From assembly GCA_903862245.1 (NCBI GenBank), contig CAIOXL010000159.1, positions 1 through 34,054 of the forward strand: DNA of 34,054 nt. Reading direction: 5' to 3'. Every line of letters starts with the position of its first letter. The first letter of the stretch is position 1. The DNA comes from an uncultured Geobacteraceae bacterium (GTDB lineage: Bacteria; Desulfobacterota; Desulfuromonadia; Geobacterales; Pseudopelobacteraceae). The position numbers were made by a program, and so were the translations under genes. The notes below the pieces were generated by a model. It worked only from the letters and a program-made list of their open reading frames with translations, did not search any database and was not told where the DNA came from. Positions 1,332 to 34,054 of the stretch are shown here, one piece after another.

Positions 1332-1883
1332 ATGAAGCGTTTCACTCTTTGTTGTTTTCTTGCCGTAATTTCACTGCTGGTTTTATCTGCCTGCACGAAA
1401 CAGGAAAAAACAGCTGATGCAGATAAAGCAGCCGTTAAAAGCCTGATGAAAAAATACTGCACAGCTGACTTGAACGGCGTGAACCTCAGCACAGAAAATT
1501 TCCTGAAATCAGGAATCAGTTCATTCATGGTTGCGGGTGATTCGGAACCGCCCGGATGGGACACGGTTACGCTGATAAAAGAATATGCCGTCACCTCAGT
1601 AGAATTACATGGCACAACTGCAACGGCCACCGTTTCCTACGATGTTCTGGGCGAAGTCCCCGGTGCTGAAGAGGTCGCCATTGACAAGAAGAAGGTACAG
1701 TACAGCTTTAGACTTGTAAAAAAAGAAGGCATCTGGAAACTGGTGACCCCTTCAGACCTTCAGCCGCACGTTTCTGTTCCCACCGCACTCCAGCATATTC
1801 AAAATCTCTATGACACCCAGAAAGAAAATCAGCCTAAGGCGCCGTACGTCATGCAGCGCTTAAAGCAGTTAATGGAGCAGTAA
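1332..1883 (+). CDS. Putative outer-envelope lipoprotein of unknown function
   Basis: The ATG at 1332 follows a GGAGG ribosome site at about 1320-1324. An in-frame codon further upstream at 1290 has no such site, so I start at 1332 (183 residues). The N-terminus is a lipoprotein signal: a KR n-region, a hydrophobic stretch, then LSAC with Cys at about residue 21, followed by Thr-Lys, not Asp, which fits outer-membrane sorting. The rest is a small alpha+beta domain (KSLMKKYCTADLNG, later strands such as TATATVSYDVLG and YSFRLVKKEGIWKLV) similar in style to NTF2-like or DUF4878-type lipoproteins, in which a strand pair ends in G-x-W-K-L. I cannot name the family with certainty. It lies directly upstream of the lpxL-type gene on the same strand. 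Confidence 0.75.
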   Translation: MKRFTLCCFLAVISLLVLSACTKQEKTADADKAAVKSLMKKYCTADLNGVNLSTENFLKSGISSFMVAGDSEPPGWDTVTLIKEYAVTSVELHGTTATATVSYDVLGEVPGAEEVAIDKKKVQYSFRLVKKEGIWKLVTPSDLQPHVSVPTALQHIQNLYDTQKENQPKAPYVMQRLKQLMEQ

Positions 1884-1975
1884 GCGGGTGAATCGCACCC
1901 GCAGCGGTGAGCACGTCTGGCACAAATCTTCCGTACAAATCACAACTACGTACTCAAAAGGAGCTTGGCTCGGTC

Positions 1976-2887
1976 ATGAAAGGTATAATCTGGTTCTTTC
2001 AAGTGGCGGTTTTTTACTGCTGTACTCTTGCATTTGCCTTTATCCCCGCAGGCCTGATCCGACCGGTTGGATGTTTCACAGGAAGGCTGGGTGGCATCCT
2101 GATTGCCAAGAGACGGCGTGTAGCCGTCGAAAACATCCGACTGGCACTGCCGTTTATGACGAACCACCCTGATTGGAACGGCCCCAGTCAGGATCCGGAG
2201 GAGTTGGCCCGCATGATGTTCTGCCATTTGGGAATGTCTTTTGTTGAAACATGCCGCCTGTACCATGGCAGGGGTAAAGAGGCATTGGAACGGATTGAAA
2301 TCAGGGGGTGGGAACATCTGGAAGCTGCCAAAGCACGCGGCAAAGGGGTAATCGTTCTTACCGGCCACTGCGGTAATTGGGAGTTGGCCGCGCTGACAAT
2401 TCCCCGGCGCTTCAACAGTGCCATGTCAGTTGTAGCCAGACGCCAGAACAATCCCTATCTGAACAAAATGGTCGAAAAGATGCGGCTGAATTATGGCAAC
2501 CAGATCATTTACAAAAACAACGCGTTAAAAAACATGCTGACAGTTATCCGCAAGAACGGTTTGATAGGGCTTCTGGCGGATCAGGCGGCATTTCCGAAGG
2601 ATGGCGCGCTGATCGATTTTCTTGGCCGCAAGGCATGGGCGACCAAAGCACCGGTACTTGTAGCTCGCAGGTCAGGGACCGCTGTTGTCCCGGCATTTAT
2701 CCATCGTGAAGCGGACCGGCATGTCATAGAGATGCATCCGGAACTTGTTTTTTCCGATGACACCTCCGAAGAGGGGGTAGCGCTAGATGTCCAGAACTAC
2801 TCCCGAACTATCGAAGACTTCGTTGTCCGGCATCCGGTTGACTGGTACTGGGTTCATCGCCGGTGGAAACGAGCCGAAAATTTATAA
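1976..2887 (+). CDS. lpxL: Lipid A biosynthesis lauroyl/myristoyl acyltransferase (LpxL/HtrB family)
   Basis: The 303-residue inner-membrane-anchored enzyme would transfer an acyl chain from acyl-ACP to Kdo-lipid A, a late step of lipopolysaccharide assembly. The start at 1976 is chosen because AAAGGAG lies just upstream (about 1957-1963); an in-frame ATG at 1907 has no such site. The protein has an N-terminal hydrophobic segment (about residues 3-30) and then the HX4E catalytic box of the lysophospholipid acyltransferase superfamily, TGHCGNWE, with His131 and Glu136. GLLADQ and VVPAFIHRE follow as expected, and the C-terminus PVDWYWVHRRWK is typical of the family. The length is normal (about 300). 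Acyl-chain specificity cannot be read from sequence; paralogues LpxM/LpxP are alternatives. Confidence 0.88.
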   Translation: MKGIIWFFQVAVFYCCTLAFAFIPAGLIRPVGCFTGRLGGILIAKRRRVAVENIRLALPFMTNHPDWNGPSQDPEELARMMFCHLGMSFVETCRLYHGRGKEALERIEIRGWEHLEAAKARGKGVIVLTGHCGNWELAALTIPRRFNSAMSVVARRQNNPYLNKMVEKMRLNYGNQIIYKNNALKNMLTVIRKNGLIGLLADQAAFPKDGALIDFLGRKAWATKAPVLVARRSGTAVVPAFIHREADRHVIEMHPELVFSDDTSEEGVALDVQNYSRTIEDFVVRHPVDWYWVHRRWKRAENL

Positions 2888-2897
2888 CCGATGAGGT

Positions 2898-2967
2898 TCT
2901 TGCAAAAGTCCAAAAAGGTCCCCTCCCGTCAAGGGAGGGGGAGAATGTTTTTAAGACTTTTGCAAGA
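2898..2967. repeat. 70-bp nested palindrome (possible dispersed extragenic repeat)
   Basis: Outer 13-bp arms TCTTGCAAAAGTC (2898-2910) and GACTTTTGCAAGA (2955-2967) are perfect inverted repeats. Inside them is a second perfect stem, CCCCTCCC (2920-2927) with GGGAGGGG (2933-2940) around a GTCAA loop. It fills most of the gap between lpxL and the MazG-like gene. It could form a strong structure in RNA and might terminate transcription, but there is no proper T-run after the inner stem. The two-tier symmetry resembles miniature mobile or extragenic palindromic elements; only one copy is in this window. Confidence 0.65.
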
Positions 2968-3023
2968 GTCTCAGCTGTTCGCAGTAGTACGTACCTCAAG
3001 GCAGACAGGAAAAATGAGGACAC

Positions 3024-3353
3024 ATGAAAAGTACGAATTTTAGAGCAATCGTTGAACGTTCCGTGCACATTCGCACGCTCTACCATCAGTTAGAAAGGCA
3101 GCACCATGAAACAGAATGGAGTGTAGAAGAGGATGCATTAGCTTTTCTGACAGATGCCGGCCTGGTCGGGCGCCTGGCCATGGCTCAACAGGGACGGTGG
3201 CCGACTGAGGAGGAACCCGCACCAGAACTGGAGCATAAGCTTGGCGAATGTATCTGGTGGCTGATTATTTTGGCTGAACGTATGAACATTGACAGTTGTG
3301 ACGCGTTGGAGATTTTTTTGTCCAAAACAGAGGAGCAGTTAGCACGCCGCTAA
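3024..3353 (+). CDS. MazG-like all-alpha nucleotide pyrophosphohydrolase family protein
   Basis: This is a 109-residue, mostly helical protein. Its second half, ELEHKLGECIWWLIILAER then IDSCDALEIFLSKTEEQL, follows the MazG pattern of an E-x-x-E/D metal-binding helix, a W-rich hydrophobic helix and a K-x-x-E-x-L helix near the end. MazG-type enzymes hydrolyse (d)NTPs to NMPs and pyrophosphate, often for house-cleaning. The usual Asp of the second E-x-x-D element appears to be Glu here (GEC), and the first acidic cluster (WSVEEDALAFLTD) is short, so activity is uncertain. The start ATG has an AGGA ribosome site about 6 bases upstream. It stands alone between the nested palindrome and a gene-poor region. 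Confidence 0.6.
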   Translation: MKSTNFRAIVERSVHIRTLYHQLERQHHETEWSVEEDALAFLTDAGLVGRLAMAQQGRWPTEEEPAPELEHKLGECIWWLIILAERMNIDSCDALEIFLSKTEEQLARR

Positions 3354-3451
3354 GGGCTATCGCTATAACAGTTGGCCTCGACTGAATTTTTATTTATTTT
3401 CACTAAACAGCAGTGTCGTCATCGAACAGGTAACTGCTGGGAGAGTTGATA

Positions 3452-3662
3452 GCTGCGGAAGAGGCTACAAAAACAGGAGTCATCACTGGAGCTGGCTTTT
3501 TGCGTGGTTTTGTCAGCCGGTGGTGCCTTCAAGTCGACTGCTATATCCAATGGCTTTAACGCTCTACTCAGAACTGACAAAGACGCATACCAGTGGTATC
3601 AGGATAACCTGTATATCCTCAACAAGGGGTTCCTGTATGATCCACCTGTAGCGGGACAGTAA
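3452..3662 (+). pseudogene. Possible degraded or frameshifted small ORF
   Basis: The 520-bp stretch 3354-3874 has no intact gene. Within it, the frame ending at TAA 3660-3662 reads a plausible C-terminus (SNGFNALLRTDKDAYQWYQD, then a tail ending DPPVAGQ) with no in-frame ATG; a stop lies at 3447-3449. Another frame reads AAEEATKTGVITGAGF (about 3452-3499) just upstream, as if one frameshift near 3500-3520 separated the two halves. A terminator follows at 3726. I do not recognise the family. This may be a remnant or coincidence. Confidence 0.3.
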
Positions 3663-3725
3663 TGCTGCTGTAATAATGGCAGAAAAACTGGTATAGTTGC
3701 TGACAGGTGCATGGCCACCGCCCCG

Positions 3726-3754
3726 AAAACCCGCTGGAAACAGCGGGTTTTTTA
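3726..3754 (+). terminator. Rho-independent terminator
   Basis: AAAACCCGCTG (3726-3736) pairs perfectly with CAGCGGGTTTT (3741-3751) around a GAAA tetraloop, followed by more T. It is a strong hairpin that ends whatever transcribes 3354-3725, which supports a former gene in that stretch. The A-rich ascending arm could also terminate from the other side. Confidence 0.88.
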
Positions 3755-3874
3755 GTTGCATGATACCCATACGCTCAACTGATGTGCGGTTATGGTGTCC
3801 CTTGTATCCGGCAATACAGACGGCCCGTTATCAGACTGTGAACAGAAACTCCGTCTCCCGAAAGGAAGTGCCGC

Positions 3875-5128
3875 ATGCACCCTCCGTCCGCCCACATTCA
3901 GCCCAGCCTCAGCGAAGACACCCGCCAACAGATGATCGACGCCAACCGCCGTGAGTACGGCCGCCTGTACGACCTGCTGACCTTTGCCACTCCTGATCAG
4001 CTGGCAGCGGCATCCGCCGAGCGGGCGGAGCTGCTGCAGTGGCTGGACCAGCGAGCCGCCTTTGGCTACGCCGAAACCAAGGTGAACTGCACCGGCCTCT
4101 CCCCCGGCTGCAGAAGCTGCGGGGACGGCAGCTGGTCCTGCCTGTTCATCAATGGCCGCTGTAACGGCCGCTGTTTCTACTGCCCCACACCGCAGGACGA
4201 TGACGGGCCGCCGGTGACCAATGGCCTCCCCTTCACCTCTCCGGAGGATTATGCCGCCTATGTGGCCGCACTCGGCTTCAACGGCGTCAGCATCAGCGGC
4301 GGCGAACCACTGCTGACACCGGAACTGGCCATCTCTTACCTGAGCGCAGTCCGCAGGCGCTGCGGAGACACACTTCACCTCTGGCTCTATACCAACGGCA
4401 CCCTGCTCACGGCCGATCTCTGCAGCCGACTCCGGGATGCGGGGCTGAACGAGATCCGTTTTGACCTGGGCGCCGTCCGGTATAATCTCAAAAAACTGCG
4501 TCTGGCCATCGGCTGTATTGAAACGGTAACGGTGGAAATCCCGGCGGTGCCGGAGGATGAGGAATTGCTGAGGGGGAAGATGGTTGAAATGGCCGAGGCG
4601 GGGGTCAAGCATCTCAATCTGCATCAGATGCGCTTGACGCCCCATAACTTCGGCCCGCTGACGGAGCGGGGCTACACTTTTCTCCATGGTGAAAAAATCA
4701 CGGTTCTGGAATCGGAACTTTCTGCCCTCCGCCTGGTTCGTTACGGGCTGGAGCAGGGTATTCCGCTACCGGTAAATTACTGTTCATTTCCCTACAAACG
4801 CCGCTTCCAGCATGCCGCCGCCCGGCGCCGGGCGGCCCTCACCGTCTGCACGCCCGATGAAACGGTGACGGAGTCCGGCTATCTGCGGACCATTTCAGCA
4901 GCGGGGGTTCGTTACTTCGAAACGGCCTTCCTGCAGCATCCAAGCTACCGCTGTCCCTTTGAAAAAATTGTGCTGGAAACCGGCCGCGCCCTGTATCTGG
5001 AGCGACGACCGCTGACGCCGGTACTGGAACTGTCGACCGCAGAACGGGCCGCTTTGGCAGGGGGGGAGCCACCGGAGAGGATTGCCCGGTTTGAGCAGAT
5101 TGTGTGCGGCATGGCCGAATATTTCTGA
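3875..5128 (+). CDS. Radical SAM protein with extra N-terminal cysteines
   Basis: The 417-residue protein carries the radical SAM cluster motif C96-x3-C100-x2-C103 (CNGRCFYC), which binds a [4Fe-4S] cluster that cleaves S-adenosylmethionine. GGEPLL downstream is the SAM-binding GGE motif, and VSISGGEPLL and LWLYTNGTLL fit strands of the TIM barrel. Unusually, four more cysteines (C72, C79, C82, C89; C-x6-C-x2-C-x6-C) sit directly ahead of the canonical motif, and two more occur in the C-terminal half (CSFPYKRR and LTVCTPDE). These could ligate an auxiliary cluster. The start has AAAGGAAG at about 3861-3868. No substrate peptide or partner gene lies next to it. The substrate is unknown; it is clearly a radical SAM enzyme and not recognisably PflA, BioB, MoaA or a standard SPASM maturase. 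Confidence 0.85.
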   Translation: MHPPSAHIQPSLSEDTRQQMIDANRREYGRLYDLLTFATPDQLAAASAERAELLQWLDQRAAFGYAETKVNCTGLSPGCRSCGDGSWSCLFINGRCNGRCFYCPTPQDDDGPPVTNGLPFTSPEDYAAYVAALGFNGVSISGGEPLLTPELAISYLSAVRRRCGDTLHLWLYTNGTLLTADLCSRLRDAGLNEIRFDLGAVRYNLKKLRLAIGCIETVTVEIPAVPEDEELLRGKMVEMAEAGVKHLNLHQMRLTPHNFGPLTERGYTFLHGEKITVLESELSALRLVRYGLEQGIPLPVNYCSFPYKRRFQHAAARRRAALTVCTPDETVTESGYLRTISAAGVRYFETAFLQHPSYRCPFEKIVLETGRALYLERRPLTPVLELSTAERAALAGGEPPERIARFEQIVCGMAEYF

Positions 5129-25813: not shown

Positions 25814-26300
25814 ACGCGCCTCTCTCCTGCTGTTGTGCATCGTTGTTGTATCGATTGTTATTCAGGTGGCGTTGTTTCCAGTCTTCGTGCGCCCCCCCTT
25901 CAAGCCTGACCTGCTGCTCATCATCATGGTGTTTATCACCCTGCGCGGTTCATTTCAAGTCGGCGCCCCCCTCGCCTGGCTGCTTGGCCTGCTGGATGAC
26001 GTATGCAGCGGACTGTACCTGGGCCTTAATGCCGCCACGTTTTTGATTTCATTCCTCGTTATCAGGAGTGTTTCGGACCGTCTGTACGCCGACAGTGCCA
26101 TCCTGTTCGTGCTGACCGTCGCCGGCGTTACAGTTGCCGAATTCACCCTGAACCTGCTCCTCATGGTCATGTTCACCACATCCCCCGGCATCGCCTATTC
26201 CATGTTTTCCGACATTTTTCCCCGTCTGCTGGTCAATGCCTTTGTCGCATCGATCGTATCATCATTCCCCGGATTTGACTGCCAGCTGGAAACGTCATGA
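25806..26300 (+). CDS. mreD: Rod shape-determining protein MreD
   Basis: The 164-residue inner-membrane protein has about five helices. It starts SRRASLLLLCIVVVSIVIQ and continues KPDLLLIIMVFITLRGSFQVGAPLAWLLGLLDDVCSGLYLGLNAA-like segments (the G-L-x-D-x-x-x-G pattern is typical of MreD). It works with MreC in the elongasome. Start ATG 25806 overlaps the mreC end, and its TGA overlaps the mrdA ATG (ATGA), so translation is coupled on both sides. Confidence 0.92.
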   Translation: MSRRASLLLLCIVVVSIVIQVALFPVFVRPPFKPDLLLIIMVFITLRGSFQVGAPLAWLLGLLDDVCSGLYLGLNAATFLISFLVIRSVSDRLYADSAILFVLTVAGVTVAEFTLNLLLMVMFTTSPGIAYSMFSDIFPRLLVNAFVASIVSSFPGFDCQLETS

Positions 26301-28228
26301 AAGAGCGCCGCGTTGTCCGGGAATTACTGGAGTCAAAGCAGCGGATCATGTCGCTATCGTTTGTGGTCGGTATTGTCTTTCTGGTCCTGCTGGTGCGGTT
26401 ATGGCATCTGCAGATACTGAGCGCGGATGATTATCACGCCATGTCTGAAAACAACCGTCTCCGTTTTGTGCCGGTGGCCGCATCCCGTGGTGCCATACTG
26501 GACCGCGCCGGCACTGTTCTGGTCAGCAACCGCCCGTCATTCAGCCTTGCGGTAATTCCGCAGGAAGTTAAGGACAAGGAGGCGCTTCTCACACAGCTTT
26601 CCACTCTGCTGGGGCTTGACCGGACGGAAATGGCTGAACGGTGGGAAAAGAATAAGGGGCGGGCCAAATACTACCCGATTGTTCTCGCCTCCAACATCAC
26701 CCGCGACCATGTCGAAATTGTGGAAGAAAACCGCCTCCGGCTGCCGGGAGTCGAGATAGAAATGAAACCGGTGCGGGAATACAGCAGCAAGCAGCTTGCC
26801 GCACATCTGCTCGGATACATTGGCGAGATTTCTGAAAAAGAGCTGGATGTTACCGGCTTCGAAGAGTACAACCCGGGCGATTATATCGGAAAAAACGGCA
26901 TAGAGCGGGCTCTGGAAAAGGAGCTGCATGGCGGTGACGGCGGACGGCAGCTGGAAGTTGACGCTCGCGGCAGGGTTTTACGGACGATTTCCGAAAGCAG
27001 TCCGACCGTCGGCAACAGCGTCGTACTGACAATCGACGCAGCGATCCAGAAGCAGGCGGAACGGGCCTTTGGTGATCAAGCCGGTGCTGCCGTAGCCATG
27101 GACGTCTCCACAGGTGAAATACTGGCGTTTGTCAGCAACCCCGGCTTCGATCCGGCACTGTTCAGCGGCAAAATGCCGGCAGATGTCTGGAAAACATATC
27201 TGGATGACAAGCGGCATCCACTTGAAAACAAGGCGCTCAGCGGGCAATATCCCCCCGGCTCCACCTTTAAAATTGTTACTGCGCTGGCGGCACTTCAGGA
27301 CAACAGAATCAACGAATCAACCTCGTTCAATTGCAGCGGCAGCTATGACCTGGGAACCTCCACGTTCAAGTGCTGGAATAAACGGGGGCATGGGGCCACC
27401 AACCTGCGCAAATCTCTGCGGGAATCGTGCGATGTATTCTATTACAATCTGGGCGAAAAACTTGGCGTTGACAAGATTGCAGCGGCCGCCCAGGCTTTCA
27501 AGCTGGGGACCCCCCTTGGCGTCGAACTGCTGAACGAGCGGAGCGGACTCATCCCCACATCGGAATGGAAACTGAAACGCTTCGGCAAACGGTGGTTTCA
27601 CGGCGAAACCCTGTCGGTCGCCATCGGCCAGGGAGCGGTACTTCTCACGCCGATCCAGCTCGCATCCATGATCGCAACGGTAGCCAATGAAGGTACGATT
27701 TACCGCCCCCATGTGGTCAAGCGGATTGTTGATGCGGACGGGAAAACCCTCCGGGAAAGCAAAAACGAAATCATTGGAACCGCCGTATTTCCCAAAGAAT
27801 CGTACAGACTGGTCAAGCAGGGGCTGCTGGCGGTGGTCAATGAACCGGGCGGCACCGGTGCCATGGCCAGACTGCCCGATATCAAAGTGGCGGGAAAAAC
27901 CGGAACATCCCAGGTTGTCAAACTGCGCGACAGCAAATACGGCACCCCCTATCAGTACCGGGACCATGCCCTCTTTGTGGCATTTGCACCGTTTGAAAAG
28001 CCGGAAATTGCGGTGGCCGTAGTCATTGAACATGGCGAGCATGGCGGTGCAGCGGCAGCCCCCATTGCCGGAAGAATACTGAGGGCATATTTTGACGGTA
28101 AAAAACCGGTGCGCAAGGATGCAGCCGGGTCAGCAGGCAGTGATGAGAGCAATGACGACAACGATGGAACCAGCGGAGCAAACAGCGTGAAAGAGCCGCG
28201 CAACAACGGAGATGCCGCCCATGATTGA
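26297..28228 (+). CDS. mrdA: Penicillin-binding protein 2 (peptidoglycan DD-transpeptidase)
   Basis: The 643-residue elongation transpeptidase has an N-terminal membrane helix (about residues 18-36), the non-catalytic dimerisation domain (RGAILDRAG onwards) and the transpeptidase domain. Catalytic motifs are S322-T-F-K325, S377-C-D379 and K534-T-G-T537. SCD at the second motif is a PBP2-type variant of SxN. After about residue 600 there is a hydrophilic, Gly/Ser/Asp/Asn-rich tail of some 40 residues, longer than is usual. The gene is coupled to mreD (4-base overlap) and rodA (8-base overlap). Confidence 0.96.
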   Translation: MKERRVVRELLESKQRIMSLSFVVGIVFLVLLVRLWHLQILSADDYHAMSENNRLRFVPVAASRGAILDRAGTVLVSNRPSFSLAVIPQEVKDKEALLTQLSTLLGLDRTEMAERWEKNKGRAKYYPIVLASNITRDHVEIVEENRLRLPGVEIEMKPVREYSSKQLAAHLLGYIGEISEKELDVTGFEEYNPGDYIGKNGIERALEKELHGGDGGRQLEVDARGRVLRTISESSPTVGNSVVLTIDAAIQKQAERAFGDQAGAAVAMDVSTGEILAFVSNPGFDPALFSGKMPADVWKTYLDDKRHPLENKALSGQYPPGSTFKIVTALAALQDNRINESTSFNCSGSYDLGTSTFKCWNKRGHGATNLRKSLRESCDVFYYNLGEKLGVDKIAAAAQAFKLGTPLGVELLNERSGLIPTSEWKLKRFGKRWFHGETLSVAIGQGAVLLTPIQLASMIATVANEGTIYRPHVVKRIVDADGKTLRESKNEIIGTAVFPKESYRLVKQGLLAVVNEPGGTGAMARLPDIKVAGKTGTSQVVKLRDSKYGTPYQYRDHALFVAFAPFEKPEIAVAVVIEHGEHGGAAAAPIAGRILRAYFDGKKPVRKDAAGSAGSDESNDDNDGTSGANSVKEPRNNGDAAHD

Positions 28229-29321
28229 TCGCCGCCTGCTAACCAACATTGACTGGGTTCTGGCCGGACTGGTTGTGGCCGTCTGTCTGCTCGGAATACT
28301 TAACATCTACAGCGCAACGACACCCTACAAAATTATCGGAACCGCTTACTACATCAAGCAGTTTTACTGGATGCTGGTCGGTATGGTTGTTTCACTGATG
28401 GTATGCAGCCTTGATTATCACATCCTGGAAGATCTTTCCTACTGGTTCTACGGATTTCTCCTGTTCCTGCTGATTGCAGTGCTTGTTGTCGGCAAACGGT
28501 CAATGGGGGCTACCCGCTGGTTGAATCTGGGCATAATGAACATCCAGCCGTCAGAACTCATGAAGATCGTTATCATCGTGACGTTCGCCCGCTTTTTTAA
28601 CAGTTTTCAGGCGGCAGGGGGGCTGACGGTCAAAGAAGTGCTTATCCCCTTCTCTCTCCTGGCATTTCCGGCAGCATTAATCATGAAGCAGCCGGACCTG
28701 GGCACCGCAACTCTGGTCATCCTGATCGCCCTGTCCATGATCCTGTACGTCGGACTGCGCTGGTCCACCATCATGACGTTTGTCAGCGTTACAATCCCCA
28801 TGGCCTGGGTCGGCTGGTCGTTTCTGTTGCGCCCGTACCAGAAAAACCGTGTTCTCGACTTTCTGGACCCGGAACGGTCGCGGCTTGGCAGCGGCTATCA
28901 CATCATTCAGAGTAAAATTGCGGTCGGTTCAGGGGGATTCACCGGCAAAGGGTTTGTCAAAGGGACTCAGTCGCAGCTCCGTTTCCTGCCGGAACAGCAC
29001 ACCGATTTTGCCTTTTCGGTTTTTGCCGAAGAGTGGGGGTTTCTCGGCTGCCTGCTGCTGATCATCATCTACCTCTCACTGGTCCTGTGGGGGCTCAATA
29101 TCGCCCGGCGCTGCAACGACCGCTTCGGCAGCCTGCTTGCGGTCGGCGTCACCGCCATGCTCTTCTGGCATATCGTCATCAACATGGGAATGGTGATCGG
29201 CCTCTTCCCGGTCGTCGGCGTCCCGCTGCCGTTCTTTTCCTACGGCGGCACCTCCATGATCACCTCCATGGTCGGCATCGGCCTGTTGCAGAACATCAGC
29301 ATGCGGCGGTTTATGTTCTGA
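28221..29321 (+). CDS. rodA: Peptidoglycan glycosyltransferase RodA (SEDS family)
   Basis: The 366-residue polytopic enzyme polymerises lipid II for the lateral wall with PBP2. It begins MIDRRLLTNIDWV, typical of RodA. Family motifs include KRSMGATRWLNLG, NIQPSELMKI, QPDLGTA, LPEQHTDFAFSV and the C-terminal GVPLPFFSYGGTSM. I choose ATG 28221 over 28212 because GGAG (28208-28211) is 9 bases from it and directly abuts the other. The start overlaps the end of mrdA. It is the last gene of the cluster and is followed by a very long-stemmed terminator. Confidence 0.96.
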   Translation: MIDRRLLTNIDWVLAGLVVAVCLLGILNIYSATTPYKIIGTAYYIKQFYWMLVGMVVSLMVCSLDYHILEDLSYWFYGFLLFLLIAVLVVGKRSMGATRWLNLGIMNIQPSELMKIVIIVTFARFFNSFQAAGGLTVKEVLIPFSLLAFPAALIMKQPDLGTATLVILIALSMILYVGLRWSTIMTFVSVTIPMAWVGWSFLLRPYQKNRVLDFLDPERSRLGSGYHIIQSKIAVGSGGFTGKGFVKGTQSQLRFLPEQHTDFAFSVFAEEWGFLGCLLLIIIYLSLVLWGLNIARRCNDRFGSLLAVGVTAMLFWHIVINMGMVIGLFPVVGVPLPFFSYGGTSMITSMVGIGLLQNISMRRFMF

Positions 29322-29443: not shown

Positions 29444-30796
29444 CTACCTCGGCACGCGCACCCTCGCCTCTTCATACCCGGCAAACACCTTGGCGCCCAG
29501 CATAAATTCCGCCCAGAATTCTTTCCACTGGGAAGGCTCTGCTTCGGCGTCGCTCACCGGCTTGAGCTCTGCCAGGAAGATGGTCAGCGCAGCACCCCCT
29601 ACCAGCAGAAACCCGGCCAGCATGAATGACTTGCCAAGACCACCCGGCTGAGCGTTGATCATCTCGGAAACCTTACCCATGACGAAACCGCCCACGCCCC
29701 ACGCCGTAAACAGAGCGCCGTAATTAAGACCATAGTTTTTGGTTCCCCAGTAATCCTTGGCAAAGGAGGGGAACAGGCAGAGGTTTGAGCCGTAGTTGAA
29801 GCCGATGAAGGAGGCCAGCAGAACCAGCAGCACGGCGCTGCCGGTGTTGACCACCGCCATGGCGATGAACATCATTACGGCCTGGAACGAGAGCATGATA
29901 AACAGGGTGGCACGGCGGCCGATCTTGTCCGAAAGTACACCGGCCACAACGCGACCACCGGCATTCCCGATCGCCATGATGGCAACGGCCACAAACGCCA
30001 TGGGCCCCATGCTCTTCTTGGCCAGACCGGCAACACTGCCGATGACCATCAACCCGGCGCCCGAGCCGATGAAGAAGGCAACCCAGAGAACGTAGAACTT
30101 ATAGTTGCGTAGCATCTCGCTAACAGTGGCGTTCACCACCGGCTTTGAAGCATTCAGCTTGGCCAGGGGCCCCAGTTCTGCCGGTTCGGCCGGGACAAAC
30201 CCCTGAGGCGGATTGGCAAGCACAAAGGAGAGACCGCAGACAACGGCCGTAAAACCGATTCCCAGAAACATCATCGCCTTCGGGATACCGAATGCGCCGA
30301 TCAGGTAGGATGCAAGCGGTGCGATGTACACCGGGGCGATGCCGAAGCCGGCCACAACGATGCCCGCTATCAATCCGGTTTTGGAGGGGGAAAACCATTT
30401 CAGCGCCGGCGGTGTGGCGGCAGAATAGCCGAAACCAAAGCCGCTGCCGGCGAGGATGCCGAAGCCGAAGACCCAGGCCATGTAGCTGTTGGAGAACGCC
30501 ATCAGCATGAAGCCAGCCCCCACCAGAACCCCGCCGATCAGTGCGGTGCGGGCCGGGCCGATCTTGTCCTGGCACTTGCCGGCCAGAATCATGGCAAATG
30601 CGAAGGCGAGACAGCAGACGGCGTATGGATCATTGATCGAGGCGATATCCCACTGAAAGGCATCCGGGCCCCCTTTTTCGATGGAGGCCTTGATGGCCCC
30701 CTTGAAAATACTCCAGGCATACAGCACTCCGAGGGCCAGGTTGATGGCAAGGCCTGCAGAAACAACGGTCCACCCCTTATTCTTGATCTCAGTCAT
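29444..30796 (-). CDS. OFA-family MFS transporter (oxalate/formate antiporter-like)
   Basis: The 450-residue inner-membrane protein has about 12 helices. The opening KGWTVVSAGLAINLALGVLYAWSIFKGA is the OFA signature, and CQDKIGPARTALIGGVLVGAGF and SDKIGRRATLF are the MFS loop 2-3 motif and its repeat in the second half. FGFGYSAATPPALKWFSPSKTGLIAGIVVAGFG is also typical of OFA proteins. Family members move small carboxylates (oxalate, formate, pyruvate, lactate); the substrate here is not determined. It is the last gene of a five-gene minus-strand operon, 16 bases after its neighbour, with AGGGGAG as ribosome site. Confidence 0.9.
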   Translation of the reverse strand: MTEIKNKGWTVVSAGLAINLALGVLYAWSIFKGAIKASIEKGGPDAFQWDIASINDPYAVCCLAFAFAMILAGKCQDKIGPARTALIGGVLVGAGFMLMAFSNSYMAWVFGFGILAGSGFGFGYSAATPPALKWFSPSKTGLIAGIVVAGFGIAPVYIAPLASYLIGAFGIPKAMMFLGIGFTAVVCGLSFVLANPPQGFVPAEPAELGPLAKLNASKPVVNATVSEMLRNYKFYVLWVAFFIGSGAGLMVIGSVAGLAKKSMGPMAFVAVAIMAIGNAGGRVVAGVLSDKIGRRATLFIMLSFQAVMMFIAMAVVNTGSAVLLVLLASFIGFNYGSNLCLFPSFAKDYWGTKNYGLNYGALFTAWGVGGFVMGKVSEMINAQPGGLGKSFMLAGFLLVGGAALTIFLAELKPVSDAEAEPSQWKEFWAEFMLGAKVFAGYEEARVRVPR

Positions 30797-30812: not shown

Positions 30813-31862
30813 CTAGAGTTTCTGGGCCACGGCTTTTTTATCCGGGCCGTTCATACGAATAGCGGTGGCAAACTCCATCCAGAAGACCAGGTAAATCGAG
30901 ATCATCAGCGAAAGACCGACATTCTGATTTTCAGCACCGAGCGCCTTGGCCAGAATCGGCGAAGCGAAACCGGCGCCCAGATCACCGGTTATTCTTTCCA
31001 GCAGATAGAACATGGGCAGGGTCAGCACCGTGCCGATAATCATGATGGCGATACCGGTGGGGCGTTTGATCCAGTACTTGGGGGAGAAACCGTACATGCG
31101 CATGAAGATGACCACCCAGATAATCCAGACCGAATAGTCCACCGCAGCGTCCGGCAGTGCCAGTTTGTTTTTGACCAGCACAACTTCCAACACGGTGACA
31201 ACACCCAGCAGGGTGAACATCCAGTTGAATTTTTCGTTGGCCTGGGTCTGCCAGTTGCGGCTGTCCGGTGCCTTGACTTCGTCGAAGGAGTGGCTGTGGG
31301 TGCCCAAGGCCGAGAAAAGAATGGCGAACCAGATGCCGGCGTTATGAAAGAGAAGGGAGGCATGGTTACCGGCTACGTTGGCGATGCGGGCCATGGGGTC
31401 ACGGGCAAAGTCGCCGGCGATGCGCATCAGGAACAGGTTGACAATTACCGAGCAGCAGATAATGACCGCAATGGTGAAGATCTTTCGCGGCAGCAGATAC
31501 GGATCGACTCGATCCGGGAAGCCGATGATGAAGGCGAACCAGATCAGGTACATAATCAGCGGGATGCCGAAGCAGATGCCGTAGACCGACTTGCCGGCAA
31601 AATCTCCGCTCTGGGCGTAGATGATGTAGTTATTGTCCGGATCGTCATCTGTGTTGGCCGCCTTGACAACATCCTTGGGCACCTTGTTAAGATGCGGCAA
31701 CAGGCCCATGGCGTACCAGCCATGATCCCCCTGAGTCGTATTGAGAACCCAGTACTGGTCGCCCATCATCTCGTCCAGACCACCAAAAAGCTGCATATTG
31801 AAGGCGGCGCAGAAAACGCAGACCACCAGAAGCAAGATTGCATGAGTAATTTTCATCGGCAT
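30813..31862 (-). CDS. Polytopic membrane protein of unknown family, OFA operon
   Basis: The 349-residue protein has roughly eight hydrophobic segments: one near the start (KITHAILLLVVCVFCAAF), then an approximately 65-residue polar, presumably periplasmic region containing YWVLNTTQGDHGWYAMGL and a run of acidic residues (NTDDDPDNNY), then seven more (about residues 93-115, 127-150, 166-188, 213-233, 240-258, 265-290 and 318-340). HNAGIWFAILFSALGTHSHSF has several His residues in a membrane context. I do not recognise the family. The start at 31862 has AGGGGGA 8 bases upstream. Its tight packing with an OFA transporter and two tiny membrane proteins suggests a subunit or sensor of the same system. 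A long open frame on the opposite strand is a shadow. Confidence 0.75.
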   Translation of the reverse strand: MPMKITHAILLLVVCVFCAAFNMQLFGGLDEMMGDQYWVLNTTQGDHGWYAMGLLPHLNKVPKDVVKAANTDDDPDNNYIIYAQSGDFAGKSVYGICFGIPLIMYLIWFAFIIGFPDRVDPYLLPRKIFTIAVIICCSVIVNLFLMRIAGDFARDPMARIANVAGNHASLLFHNAGIWFAILFSALGTHSHSFDEVKAPDSRNWQTQANEKFNWMFTLLGVVTVLEVVLVKNKLALPDAAVDYSVWIIWVVIFMRMYGFSPKYWIKRPTGIAIMIIGTVLTLPMFYLLERITGDLGAGFASPILAKALGAENQNVGLSLMISIYLVFWMEFATAIRMNGPDKKAVAQKL

Positions 31863-31875
31863 GAGCGTATTCCCC

Positions 31876-32127
31876 CTATTCCTTGTGTGTTGTCCAGAAC
31901 ATCGACACCGCATTGGCGGCAAACAGGCCGTAAAGCCACATGGTATTCCAGGCCGGACCGGACCAATGACTGCCATGACCGCCACCGACAACACCGGATG
32001 CGATCACGAAGCCGATCATCGATGTGAAGGCCACCATGGCAACCGAGCGAAGGATCGCACTGTTGCGCCAGGTATGACGCTCCAGTTCCTCTATTCTGTT
32101 CAGCAGTTCAAGCTCTCTTTCGCTCAT
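31876..32127 (-). CDS. Small two-helix membrane protein, OFA operon
   Basis: The 83-residue protein starts with a charged amphipathic helix (SERELELLNRIEELERHTWR) and has two membrane helices (about residues 25-47 and 60-78) separated by a Gly/His-rich turn (GVVGGGHGSHWSGP). A strong site AAAGGAG precedes the start. It overlaps the 3' end of the upstream 40-residue gene by 20 bases, and the next gene begins 13 bases after its stop. I do not recognise the family; the N-terminal helix could mediate assembly. The His-Trp-rich loop between helices may bind metal or contact a partner; that is inference. Confidence 0.7.
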   Translation of the reverse strand: MSERELELLNRIEELERHTWRNSAILRSVAMVAFTSMIGFVIASGVVGGGHGSHWSGPAWNTMWLYGLFAANAVSMFWTTHKE

Positions 32128-32230
32128 TTCTCTTCTCCTTTGTTATCGTTATTGCAAGAAACAGCAAGGTAACTGTCAGGGCCAGTGCCAGACGAAATCC
32201 ATCTAAATTCAGCGTCACGTTGTACAGCAT
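32108..32230 (-). CDS. 40-residue single-helix membrane peptide, OFA operon
   Basis: This short gene is supported by an excellent ribosome site: AAGGAGGT ends 5 bases before the ATG at 32230. The product has a short polar N-terminus, one hydrophobic helix (about residues 12-29, FRLALALTVTLLFLAITI) and a very basic tail (KEKRNERKRA), which puts the C-terminus in the cytoplasm. Its end overlaps the next gene. Small proteins of this size accompany some OFA transporters elsewhere as small subunits; I recall this only generally, so homology is unproven. Annotation pipelines could easily miss it. Confidence 0.65.
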   Translation of the reverse strand: MLYNVTLNLDGFRLALALTVTLLFLAITITKEKRNERKRA

Positions 32231-32264
32231 CGGTACCTCCTTCCATTCCGGCGATCGTTCGTAT

Positions 32265-32450
32265 TCAAGACATCTGAGGAAGCTCGCCATGAAAACGATC
32301 GGCCAGTTCCAGATATTTACTGCACTGGGCGTGTCGACCACAGCAGTAGCGAATGATCATATTCACGTCATGGGGTGATATGTATTCGCATCCGACATCG
32401 CAGTAATCGTCGTTTTTGCCATAAAATGGGCAGATGTCAGGATTTCCCAT
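32265..32450 (-). CDS. Small cysteine-rich protein, first gene of OFA operon
   Basis: The 61-residue soluble protein has six cysteines in its first 43 residues: C7, C17, C21, C36, C37 and C43 (DICPFYG, YCDVGCEY, RYCCGRHAQCSKYLELA). Two His residues (H27, H40) lie among them. The pattern suggests a small zinc or Fe-S binding domain. The ATG at 32450 is preceded by GAGAGGA, and a sigma-54 promoter ends about 35 bases upstream. The 34-base gap to the next gene shows it belongs to the same transcript. It may be a regulator, sensor or metallochaperone for the transport system; the family is not recognised. Confidence 0.68.
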   Translation of the reverse strand: MGNPDICPFYGKNDDYCDVGCEYISPHDVNMIIRYCCGRHAQCSKYLELADRFHGELPQMS

Positions 32451-32483: not shown

Positions 32484-32500
32484 AGCACTAGTTGTGCCAA
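32484..32500 (-). promoter_or_regulatory. Sigma-54 (RpoN) promoter of the OFA operon
   Basis: On the minus strand, TTGGCACAACTAGTGCT matches the -24/-12 consensus: TTGGCAC with invariant GG at 32498-32497 and GC at 32486-32485, exactly 12 bases apart. Predicted transcription starts near 32473, leaving a leader of about 23 bases before the Cys-rich gene. Enhancer-like dyads upstream support the call. Confidence 0.82.
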
Positions 32501-32585: not shown

Positions 32586-32601
32586 TTTGCATAAATGCAA
32601 A
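32586..32601. promoter_or_regulatory. Dyad operator 1 (TTTGCA-N4-TGCAAA)
   Basis: TTTGCATAAATGCAAA is a perfect 6-4-6 inverted repeat. Its centre is about 120 bases upstream of the predicted sigma-54 start site, a normal distance for an activator binding site. Confidence 0.72.
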
Positions 32602-32647
32602 TAGGTATGGTGAATCTGGAAGGCGGTGGCGGATGCCAGTGAATGAT

Positions 32648-32670
32648 AAAAACAGAAGTCAGCTGTTTTT
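32648..32670 (-). terminator. A/T-flanked hairpin, possible terminator of the methyltransferase unit
   Basis: AAAAACAG (32648-32655) and CTGTTTTT (32663-32670) form a perfect 8-bp stem with a 7-base loop. It reads as a weak terminator in either direction, about 200 bases beyond the methyltransferase stop. Confidence 0.4.
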
Positions 32671-32719
32671 GTATAGGTATATCTGATGGTTAGTTCGATT
32701 TACGGGAAGTGCGGCAGCT

Positions 32720-32737
32720 ATTTGCACAATTGCAAAT
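32720..32737. promoter_or_regulatory. Dyad operator 2 (TTTGCA-N4-TGCAAA)
   Basis: ATTTGCACAATTGCAAAT has 7-bp perfect arms with a 4-base centre. Its 16-bp core at 32721-32736 is the exact reverse complement of dyad 3. The two centres are 33 bp apart, close to three helical turns. Confidence 0.75.
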
Positions 32738-32753
32738 GCCAGAGGAGTAGATA

Positions 32754-32769
32754 TTTGCAATTGTGCAAA
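32754..32769. promoter_or_regulatory. Dyad operator 3 (TTTGCA-N4-TGCAAA)
   Basis: TTTGCAATTGTGCAAA is the reverse complement of the core of dyad 2. It is about 290 bases upstream of the predicted start site. With dyads 1 and 2 it makes three copies of one motif in a 184-bp non-coding stretch. Confidence 0.75.
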
Positions 32770-32872: not shown

Positions 32873-33706
32873 TTACGACAATTTTTGAGCGACCAGACTC
32901 CCATAAGCGATGGAACCGTAAAAACAGCCACTGGCCACCCTTCGGCGAGCCTCGTTTTTAAGGGCCAGCGCCAGATCTGTGCTGATTCTGCCTGCCGCAA
33001 CAAGCACATCCGCACCTCGATCGGCAATGGTCAGCATATAGTCCGGTTCAGAGGTTTCAACAATACCAAGAGAGCGCTGTTTGACAATGGTGAAACCGAC
33101 ATGCCGAACGAGAGCCGGCAGTTTCTGAATCAGCCAGCGGTCATGGACAAGAGCCGCCATGGCGGCATCGGCACAGGCCTGCAGCGGGTCGAAGTCTCCA
33201 TTTGCCAATGTCGTCGTCGTATAATTGCCGTCGAATACCGCCAGGATACCGCCGGGGCGCAGCACCCGGAACGCCTCTTTCAGGACGCTTTCCGGCGAGG
33301 GGATATGACTCAGGGTGGTGTGGTAGAAAACAGCGTCGAAACTGCAGCTGTCATAGGCAAGATTCCGGGCATCCCCCTCAGTGAAACTCAGGTTCGGCAC
33401 ATCAGATGCCAGTTGACGTGCGGTTGCCAGGAATAGGGGGGACGGGTCAAGACCGATAATACGCCCCCTCGGGATACGGCGGGCGAGCTCCCGGCTGACG
33501 GCACCTGTGCCGCAGCCGATGTCAAGCAGATCGGCGGCTTCCGGAAAATCGATATCGGAAAGATAGGTACTGAGCATGCTGCACTGCTGAGGATCAGCCG
33601 CCCGGCGTTCAAGCACGTCAGCCAGACGTGCCTGAACATCCCGGTCGGCATCGGTAATGGTCGAGTAGACATCCGTTAGATGTCGAGGGCGGATATACGC
33701 GGTCAC
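32873..33706 (-). CDS. Class I SAM-dependent methyltransferase
   Basis: The 277-residue protein has motif [14 protein letters not shown] (about residues 59-71), motif [12 protein letters not shown], then [33 protein letters not shown] and [17 protein letters not shown], the standard order of a UbiE/Methyltransf_11-type fold. The substrate is unknown. The start is a GTG at 33706 that overlaps the TGA of the upstream acyl-CoA synthetase gene (GTGA), so translation is coupled. The association with an acyl-CoA ligase may indicate a shared lipid or secondary-metabolite role, but this is inference. A 422-bp non-coding region separates it from the OFA operon. Confidence 0.88.
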
Positions 33707-34054
33707 GCGGTGGCGCCCATGTCCTCCAGCTGCAGTTCCTTGATGGCCATTTCCCGCATCTTGAATTTTTGGATCTTGCCGGATGCGGTCATGGGGTAAC
33801 CCTCGACAAATTTGACGTATTTCGGGATTTTGTAGTTGGCTATTTTCCCCTTGCAGAATTCGCGTACTTCCTCTTCGCTCATTGCCATACCCTTTTTAAG
33901 TATGATAGCGGCCATGACCTGCTCACCGTATTTCTTGTCCGGTACGCCGTAGACCTGAATATCGGAGACTTTGGGGTGGGTGTAGAGGAATTCCTCGATC
34001 TCGCGCGGGTAGATGTTCTCGCCACCACGGATGATCATGTTTTTGATCCGGCCG
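33703..34054 (-). CDS. AMP-dependent acyl-CoA synthetase, C-terminal part (runs off the window)
   Basis: Only the last 116 or so residues are visible; the gene continues beyond the right edge. The hinge and A8 motif [23 protein letters not shown] opens the piece, followed by [20 protein letters not shown] and the A10 motif [14 protein letters not shown] with the catalytic lysine used in adenylation. The YPREIE form and ending fit medium- or long-chain fatty acyl-CoA ligases (FadD-like), which activate carboxylic acids with ATP and CoA. Chain specificity cannot be read. The ATG at 34038 is internal, not a start. The stop overlaps the methyltransferase start. Confidence 0.9.

Follow-up and report, generated by a model that had tools for sequence, protein, structure and literature searches.

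The three TTTGCA-N4-TGCAAA dyads of the window, which is the whole stretch of 34,054 nucleotides analysed here, are very probably enhancer sites of a dedicated pair formed by a Cache-domain histidine kinase and an NtrC-type regulator, which would drive a sigma-54 regulon for the uptake of short-chain monocarboxylates. The sites, the promoter element, their spacing, their conservation, the target genes and the associated regulator can be read from the sequence. The original prediction, that the dyads form an upstream activating sequence for a bacterial enhancer-binding protein, is supported by comparison with relatives: dyads and -24/-12 elements appear to be conserved jointly, the spacing between them shifts by roughly one helical turn at a time, and a candidate activator co-localises with the dyads, co-occurs with them and seems to be lost with them.

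The dyads, which have no strand, are located at 32586-32601 (TTTGCATAAATGCAAA), 32721-32736 (TTTGCACAATTGCAAA) and 32754-32769 (TTTGCAATTGTGCAAA). All three are exact matches to the 16-bp pattern and are conserved in relatives, and the first is proximal to the promoter. As originally described, the second and third are exact reverse complements spaced 33 bp apart, and the first lies 135 bp from the second. They are all the exact copies in the whole 2.92-Mb assembly, which has three such sites against none for a backwards-read control pattern, and nine sites against four when one mismatch is allowed, the six extra ones being all on other contigs. By simple arithmetic, a pattern of 12 fixed bases is expected by chance about 0.2 times in 2.92 Mb. 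Frequent occurrence of the motif throughout the genome, which by the original prediction would speak against it, is not seen. With up to two mismatches the window alone has five sites, while shuffled sequences have a mean of 2.08 (sd 1.39) and 6 of 100 shuffles reach five; this count is unremarkable, so the signal rests in the exact, clustered copies.

The sigma-54 promoter, which had been placed downstream of the dyads without a position, is located at 32484-32499 on the minus strand. Its -24/-12 element, TGGCACAACTAGTGCT, is a GG-N10-GC sequence before a gene and its counterpart is conserved in relatives, while its -12 half, GTGCT, deviates from the common TTGC. Measured from the first base of this element, the centres of the dyads lie at 94, 229 and 262 bp, and the window thus has more than one dyad-symmetric site in the region roughly 80-250 bp upstream of it, as is characteristic of sigma-54 upstream activating sequences.

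The element is on the minus strand, so it points to an operon that is read leftwards and extends between 32450 and 29444. The first gene (32265-32450, minus strand) encodes a 61-aa cysteine-rich protein of no known family, with homologues at the matching place in many of the loci inspected. It is followed, on the same strand, by genes of two small hydrophobic proteins, one of 40 aa (32108-32230, its start inferred from homologues) and one of 83 aa (31876-32127, of no known family); a longer 77-aa reading frame at 32108-32341 has no family match. Homologues of the small proteins recur at matching places, but not in every locus, among 27 of the 80 relative loci and 20 fetched regions that were viewed. 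MP350, a membrane protein of about 350 aa (30813-31862, minus strand, start inferred from homologues), has no relative in Pfam, NCBIfam or PDB, and AlphaFold gives no usable model of it (mean pLDDT 40.8). It is strongly conserved, with 16 orthologues 71-91% identical to the copy of the window. The last gene (29444-30796, minus strand) encodes an MFS transporter that scores 401.4 bits with NF049980, the NCBIfam model of the SfMCT L-lactate transporter, which is above the cut-off of 320, and matches PDB 6g9x with an E value of 2.7e-46. The protein is therefore of the SfMCT type by this cut-off, and is predicted to transport L-lactate.

Loci encoding relatives of MP350 were collected in a scan of named genomes, and the best 80 of 95 were compared with the window. 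Their titles name the genera Geobacter, Geomonas, Geotalea, Citrifermentans, Trichlorobacter and Pelotalea, and many come from metagenome-assembled genomes (MAGs) labelled only Geobacteraceae, Desulfuromonadales or Deltaproteobacteria; the sampling is uneven and consists mostly of MAGs. In 74 of these 81 loci (the window and the best 80 of 95) the 1.4 kb upstream contain a dyad with one mismatch or none, and 76 have a -24/-12 element that scores at least 17.5 on our own scale. Three of the seven loci that lack a dyad (L096, L120 and L122) end too close to the gene to be judged, and these short contigs were also skipped in the promoter scan. The other four (L131, L141, L158 and L164) have readable upstream DNA with no dyad at one mismatch or fewer within 1.4 kb. 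At L100 and L141 the promoter element scores too low. In 188 pooled dyads the arms are conserved, with a bias to the pattern from the selection at one mismatch, and the spacer is free and leans to A/T. An alignment of 14 loci, hand-chosen among the closer relatives, has 33 of 45 invariant columns in the dyad arms and promoter core and 4 of 345 elsewhere. By this comparison the putative sites and promoter are kept while the DNA between them diverges. The genomes are related, so counts across them are not independent. Some dyads of relatives, several of them single, have no -24/-12 element within 300 bp, and may be due to chance or have another role. A single exact dyad adjoins the gene of a conserved 145-156-aa protein at L198:4537, L212:4453, L215:4756 and L045:1501 (genomes G041, G046, G038 and G050, respectively). 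The other neighbour in L198 and L215 is an outer-membrane beta-barrel protein (PF13505 in L198). A -24/-12 element was not found near these four dyads, and the site possibly has another role there.

Such dyads are also found at transporter genes that do not directly follow MP350. A match to the MFS transporter with an E value of at most 1e-140 is present in 42 of 58 genomes. In 16 genomes a close homologue is not directly behind MP350, being elsewhere in the genome in 15 of them and 0.7 kb behind in G039. All 16 of these genes have an upstream dyad with at most one mismatch, 13 have a scored -24/-12 element and three do not, and the regulator described below is present in all 16 genomes. Where the MFS gene directly follows MP350, in 22 genomes, there is no dyad within 900 bp before it, as is expected for an operon; among these, L236 shows just 139 bp of upstream DNA and L267 has one promoter-like match. 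The second transporter found in relatives, SatP, belongs to the GPR1/FUN34/YaaH family (PF01184, 119.2 and 126.1 bits for two proteins, with a gathering score of 25). Its close homologues have dyads and a scored promoter in all eight cases with readable upstream DNA; a ninth (L276), which has just 125 bp upstream, has the promoter. The regulator is present in seven of the nine genomes with a close SatP. No dyad is found at any of 12 distant paralogues: seven are of SatP and five of the MFS transporter, namely the 58-60% identical paralogues that make up the match in four of the 42 genomes and, fifth, that of L248. The transporter families point to short-chain monocarboxylates as the probable substrates of the regulon. 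The loose link to regulators of short-chain fatty acids, which had been drawn from the dyad arms, agrees with these target genes, the SfMCT-type MFS and SatP/YaaH, but not with the regulator, which is of another type.

The original prediction also proposed a search for a co-occurring enhancer-binding protein, and this leads to an NtrC-type response regulator that co-localises and co-occurs with the dyads and is absent together with them. Among the best 80 of 95 loci, 36 have its gene, recognised by at least 60% identity to the copy of L088, in the neighbourhood of the operon, and in 27 of these 36 it is on the same strand and ends just before the dyads. It is adjacent in under half of the loci, many of which are short contigs. 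The orthologue of L203 has the receiver, sigma-54 activation (AAA+) and Fis-type helix-turn-helix domains that a cognate enhancer-binding protein should have, and its gene follows a kinase gene. Three kinases were examined, including that of the own genome, and have dCache_2, HAMP, HisKA and HATPase domains. At an E value of at most 1e-150 the regulator is found in 45 of 58 related genomes, the own genome being one of the 58. That the own genome lacks the regulator was considered and rejected. Contig G000:C12 (4135 bp) has the kinase gene at 1876-3828 and then, at 3832-4134, the opening 303 bases of the regulator gene, which is cut there by the contig end, and only its receiver part can be read. 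Of the 46 genomes that have the regulator, the own genome counted, 40 contain at least two exact dyads, as do 2 of the 12 without it, namely G020 and G027 (Fisher p 8e-6, kinship ignored). The genome of G002 has the regulator and no exact dyad, and is 76% complete.

The regulator is absent together with its putative sites in G037, G043 and G045. These genomes retain MP350, but a regulator orthologue was not found in them, the best matches being paralogues of at most 45% identity; an MFS match at an E value of at most 1e-60 is absent, and the 1.4 kb before MP350 contain neither a dyad at two mismatches nor a scored promoter. In G040, from the same genus, the regulator is present, a promoter is scored and dyads occur with 0, 1 and 2 mismatches, but the MFS gene is missing here too. 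Since these four genomes are closely related, a small number of events may account for the losses.

It is unlikely, but the best of the alternatives, that another enhancer-binding protein uses the dyads as sigma-54 enhancer sites and that the regulator encoded nearby is just a hitch-hiker. The sigma-54 activation domain has 23 matches in the own genome, and three genomes have dyads with the orthologue undetected, namely G020 and G027, with several exact dyads, and G023, with one exact and two one-mismatch dyads, all of which are fragmented MAGs. Against this stand the adjacency and the co-occurrence across genomes described above, and the three genomes from which regulator, dyads and promoter are missing together although other NtrC-type regulators are kept. 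Autoregulation of kinase and regulator was rejected for the eight loci checked, none of which has a dyad with two mismatches or fewer in the 700 bp upstream of the kinase gene. In L136 and L144, however, a single exact dyad precedes the kinase gene by about 85-90 bp, some 4.5 kb ahead of MP350, and L132 has one at a like place, so autoregulation is possible in one clade. In G039 (L200:7544-9552) the regulator gene is unlinked from MP350, yet a homologue of the 61-aa protein and a pair of exact dyads are found right next to it.

The position of the dyads relative to the promoter was compared in 72 loci that have a dyad, with at most two mismatches, 60-180 bp before the promoter. In most loci dyads are found 80-108 bp and 190-280 bp before the -24/-12 element, and 59 of 71 loci have 29-33 bp between the two dyads most distant from the promoter. 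The nearest dyad is at 80-85 bp in 16 loci, 91-95 bp in 23 and 102-108 bp in 26, which together make 65 of the 72, with steps at about 83, 94 and 105 bp; the remaining seven are at 98, 117, 117, 138, 140, 140 and 161 bp. The best period of this spacing is 11.3 bp (R 0.72), and at 10.5 bp R is 0.58. None of 5000 jittered sets reaches the observed value, either with all loci or with the 54 or 28 values left after collapsing by MP350 identity, and 3 of 5000 reach it with 18 collapsed values. The relatives are not independent and kinship among loci is only partly removed by this procedure, so the evidence that the spacing is constrained by the face of the helix is strong but not clean. At SatP promoters the dyad is at 92-95 bp in all eight that can be read. 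MFS promoters not behind MP350 have it at 103-104 bp in 7 of the 13 scored, and 5 of the 13 have no near dyad at one mismatch; that of L243 has a dyad at 102 bp and another nearer, at 64 bp. Sites for IHF with at most one mismatch are present between the nearest dyad and the promoter in 24 of the 72 loci, one of them in the window, against 11.1 expected from mononucleotide shuffles, which may hint at a role of IHF.

This spacing also bears on the idea, quite improbable in our view, that the dyads are operators of a regulator independent of sigma-54, for example a repressor of the short-chain fatty acid type that binds TTTGCAAA, near a sigma-54 promoter under another activator. The dyad arms resemble the TTTGCAAA sites of regulators of this type, and several single dyads of relatives have no -24/-12 element nearby. 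The placement at 80-108 and 190-280 bp in most loci, with steps of nearly one turn, is however the layout to be expected of an enhancer and not of an operator lying over a promoter. Chance, or a function unrelated to regulation, is scarcely credible and was rejected as largely refuted by the comparative data, since, although the count at two mismatches in the window lies inside the shuffle range, the exact sites of the genome are three against none for the control, the arms are conserved with free spacers and the dyads recur at unlinked MFS and SatP genes.

If the dyads are enhancer sites of the NtrC-type regulator, then binding, phosphorylation, looping, activation and the signal can be proposed as follows, the biochemistry being that of the NtrC family. 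The Cache-domain histidine kinase would sense a signal, for which lactate, acetate or another short-chain monocarboxylate is the likeliest guess from the transporter families, and would lead to phosphorylation of the regulator, dimers of which would bind the dyads. The bound regulator would assemble into an active AAA+ oligomer, which would contact, through a DNA loop, the RNA polymerase-sigma-54 held at 32484-32499 and open the promoter. The output would be transcription of the operon 32450-29444, with its small proteins, MP350 and the MFS monocarboxylate transporter. Sites of this kind would also drive, in relatives, unlinked MFS genes or the gene of a SatP/YaaH-family transporter, and their presence there suggests an uptake regulon kept across the order. 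We lean, with less assurance, to the wider reading that this is an undescribed order-wide sigma-54 regulon, the short-chain monocarboxylate uptake switch of Geobacterales, in which the enhancer layout is constant, re-spacing is by whole turns and unrelated transporters (SfMCT-type MFS and SatP/YaaH) are interchangeable beside MP350 and small partner proteins. The control of small organic acid uptake bears on iron reduction and current production, and acetate is the main electron donor of Geobacter species according to PMC2825233. A DNA site, its promoter, a likely activator and sensor, and the transporter targets are here assembled from sequence alone, so each step is directly testable. The loci also offer a clean natural case in which the distance from enhancer to promoter shifts by roughly whole helical turns.

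Control by sigma-54 and an enhancer-binding protein is textbook knowledge; among the papers listed, judged by title or abstract, no description of this activator, site or target gene set was found. The closest NCBIfam models for kinase and regulator are those of AtoS and AtoC, which act in short-chain fatty acid catabolism in Escherichia coli. An identification of the regulator as AtoC (NF008469) was rejected, as it scores 446.6 bits against a curated cut-off of 714, and the kinase scores 256.9 bits with the AtoS model, the cut-off of which is 646. In the passages of PMC3118216 on its binding site, AtoC also acts in sigma-54 control from an upstream palindrome, and one half of its site contains TTTGCA. 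That site is a 40-bp inverted palindrome of two 20-bp halves, in which, by our reading, TTGC and GCAA are 7 bases apart, against 6 here, and the targets of AtoS/AtoC differ from those described here. In Desulfovibrio vulgaris, DVU3023, DVU0539 and DVU0946 are described, in the parts of PMC3333781 and PMC4641369 that treat them, as sigma-54-dependent response regulators of lactate genes and permeases through short inverted repeats. Compared by description, they are alike in working, but have other transporters and belong to another order; the 2015 paper of this pair states, in the passage concerned, that sigma-54-dependent lactate genes were undescribed in other taxa. In Geobacter sulfurreducens, sigma-54 controls solute transporters such as dcuB, and the passages of PMC2725144 on the RpoN regulon name neither such a dyad nor such a regulator. 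The same source, in its part on this gene, assigns to RpoD an oxalate-formate antiporter, GSU2490. In Pseudomonas, the two-component system CrbS/CrbR controls acetate genes, among them that of a transporter, by way of an inverted repeat, but CrbR differs in belonging to the LuxR family and in acting at putative RpoD promoters, according to the relevant passages of PMC5715377.

The remaining neighbours of the operon lie on both of its sides. Upstream of it, at 33703-34053 on the minus strand, the window contains the C-terminal part of an AMP-binding acyl-CoA ligase. Several relatives (L206, L209 and L203) encode a close homologue of this ligase in the vicinity of the operon or of the regulator gene, so the ligase may share the pathway. 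At 26297-29321 on the plus strand, two reading frames of 643 and 369 aa resemble, by eye, penicillin-binding protein 2 and RodA.
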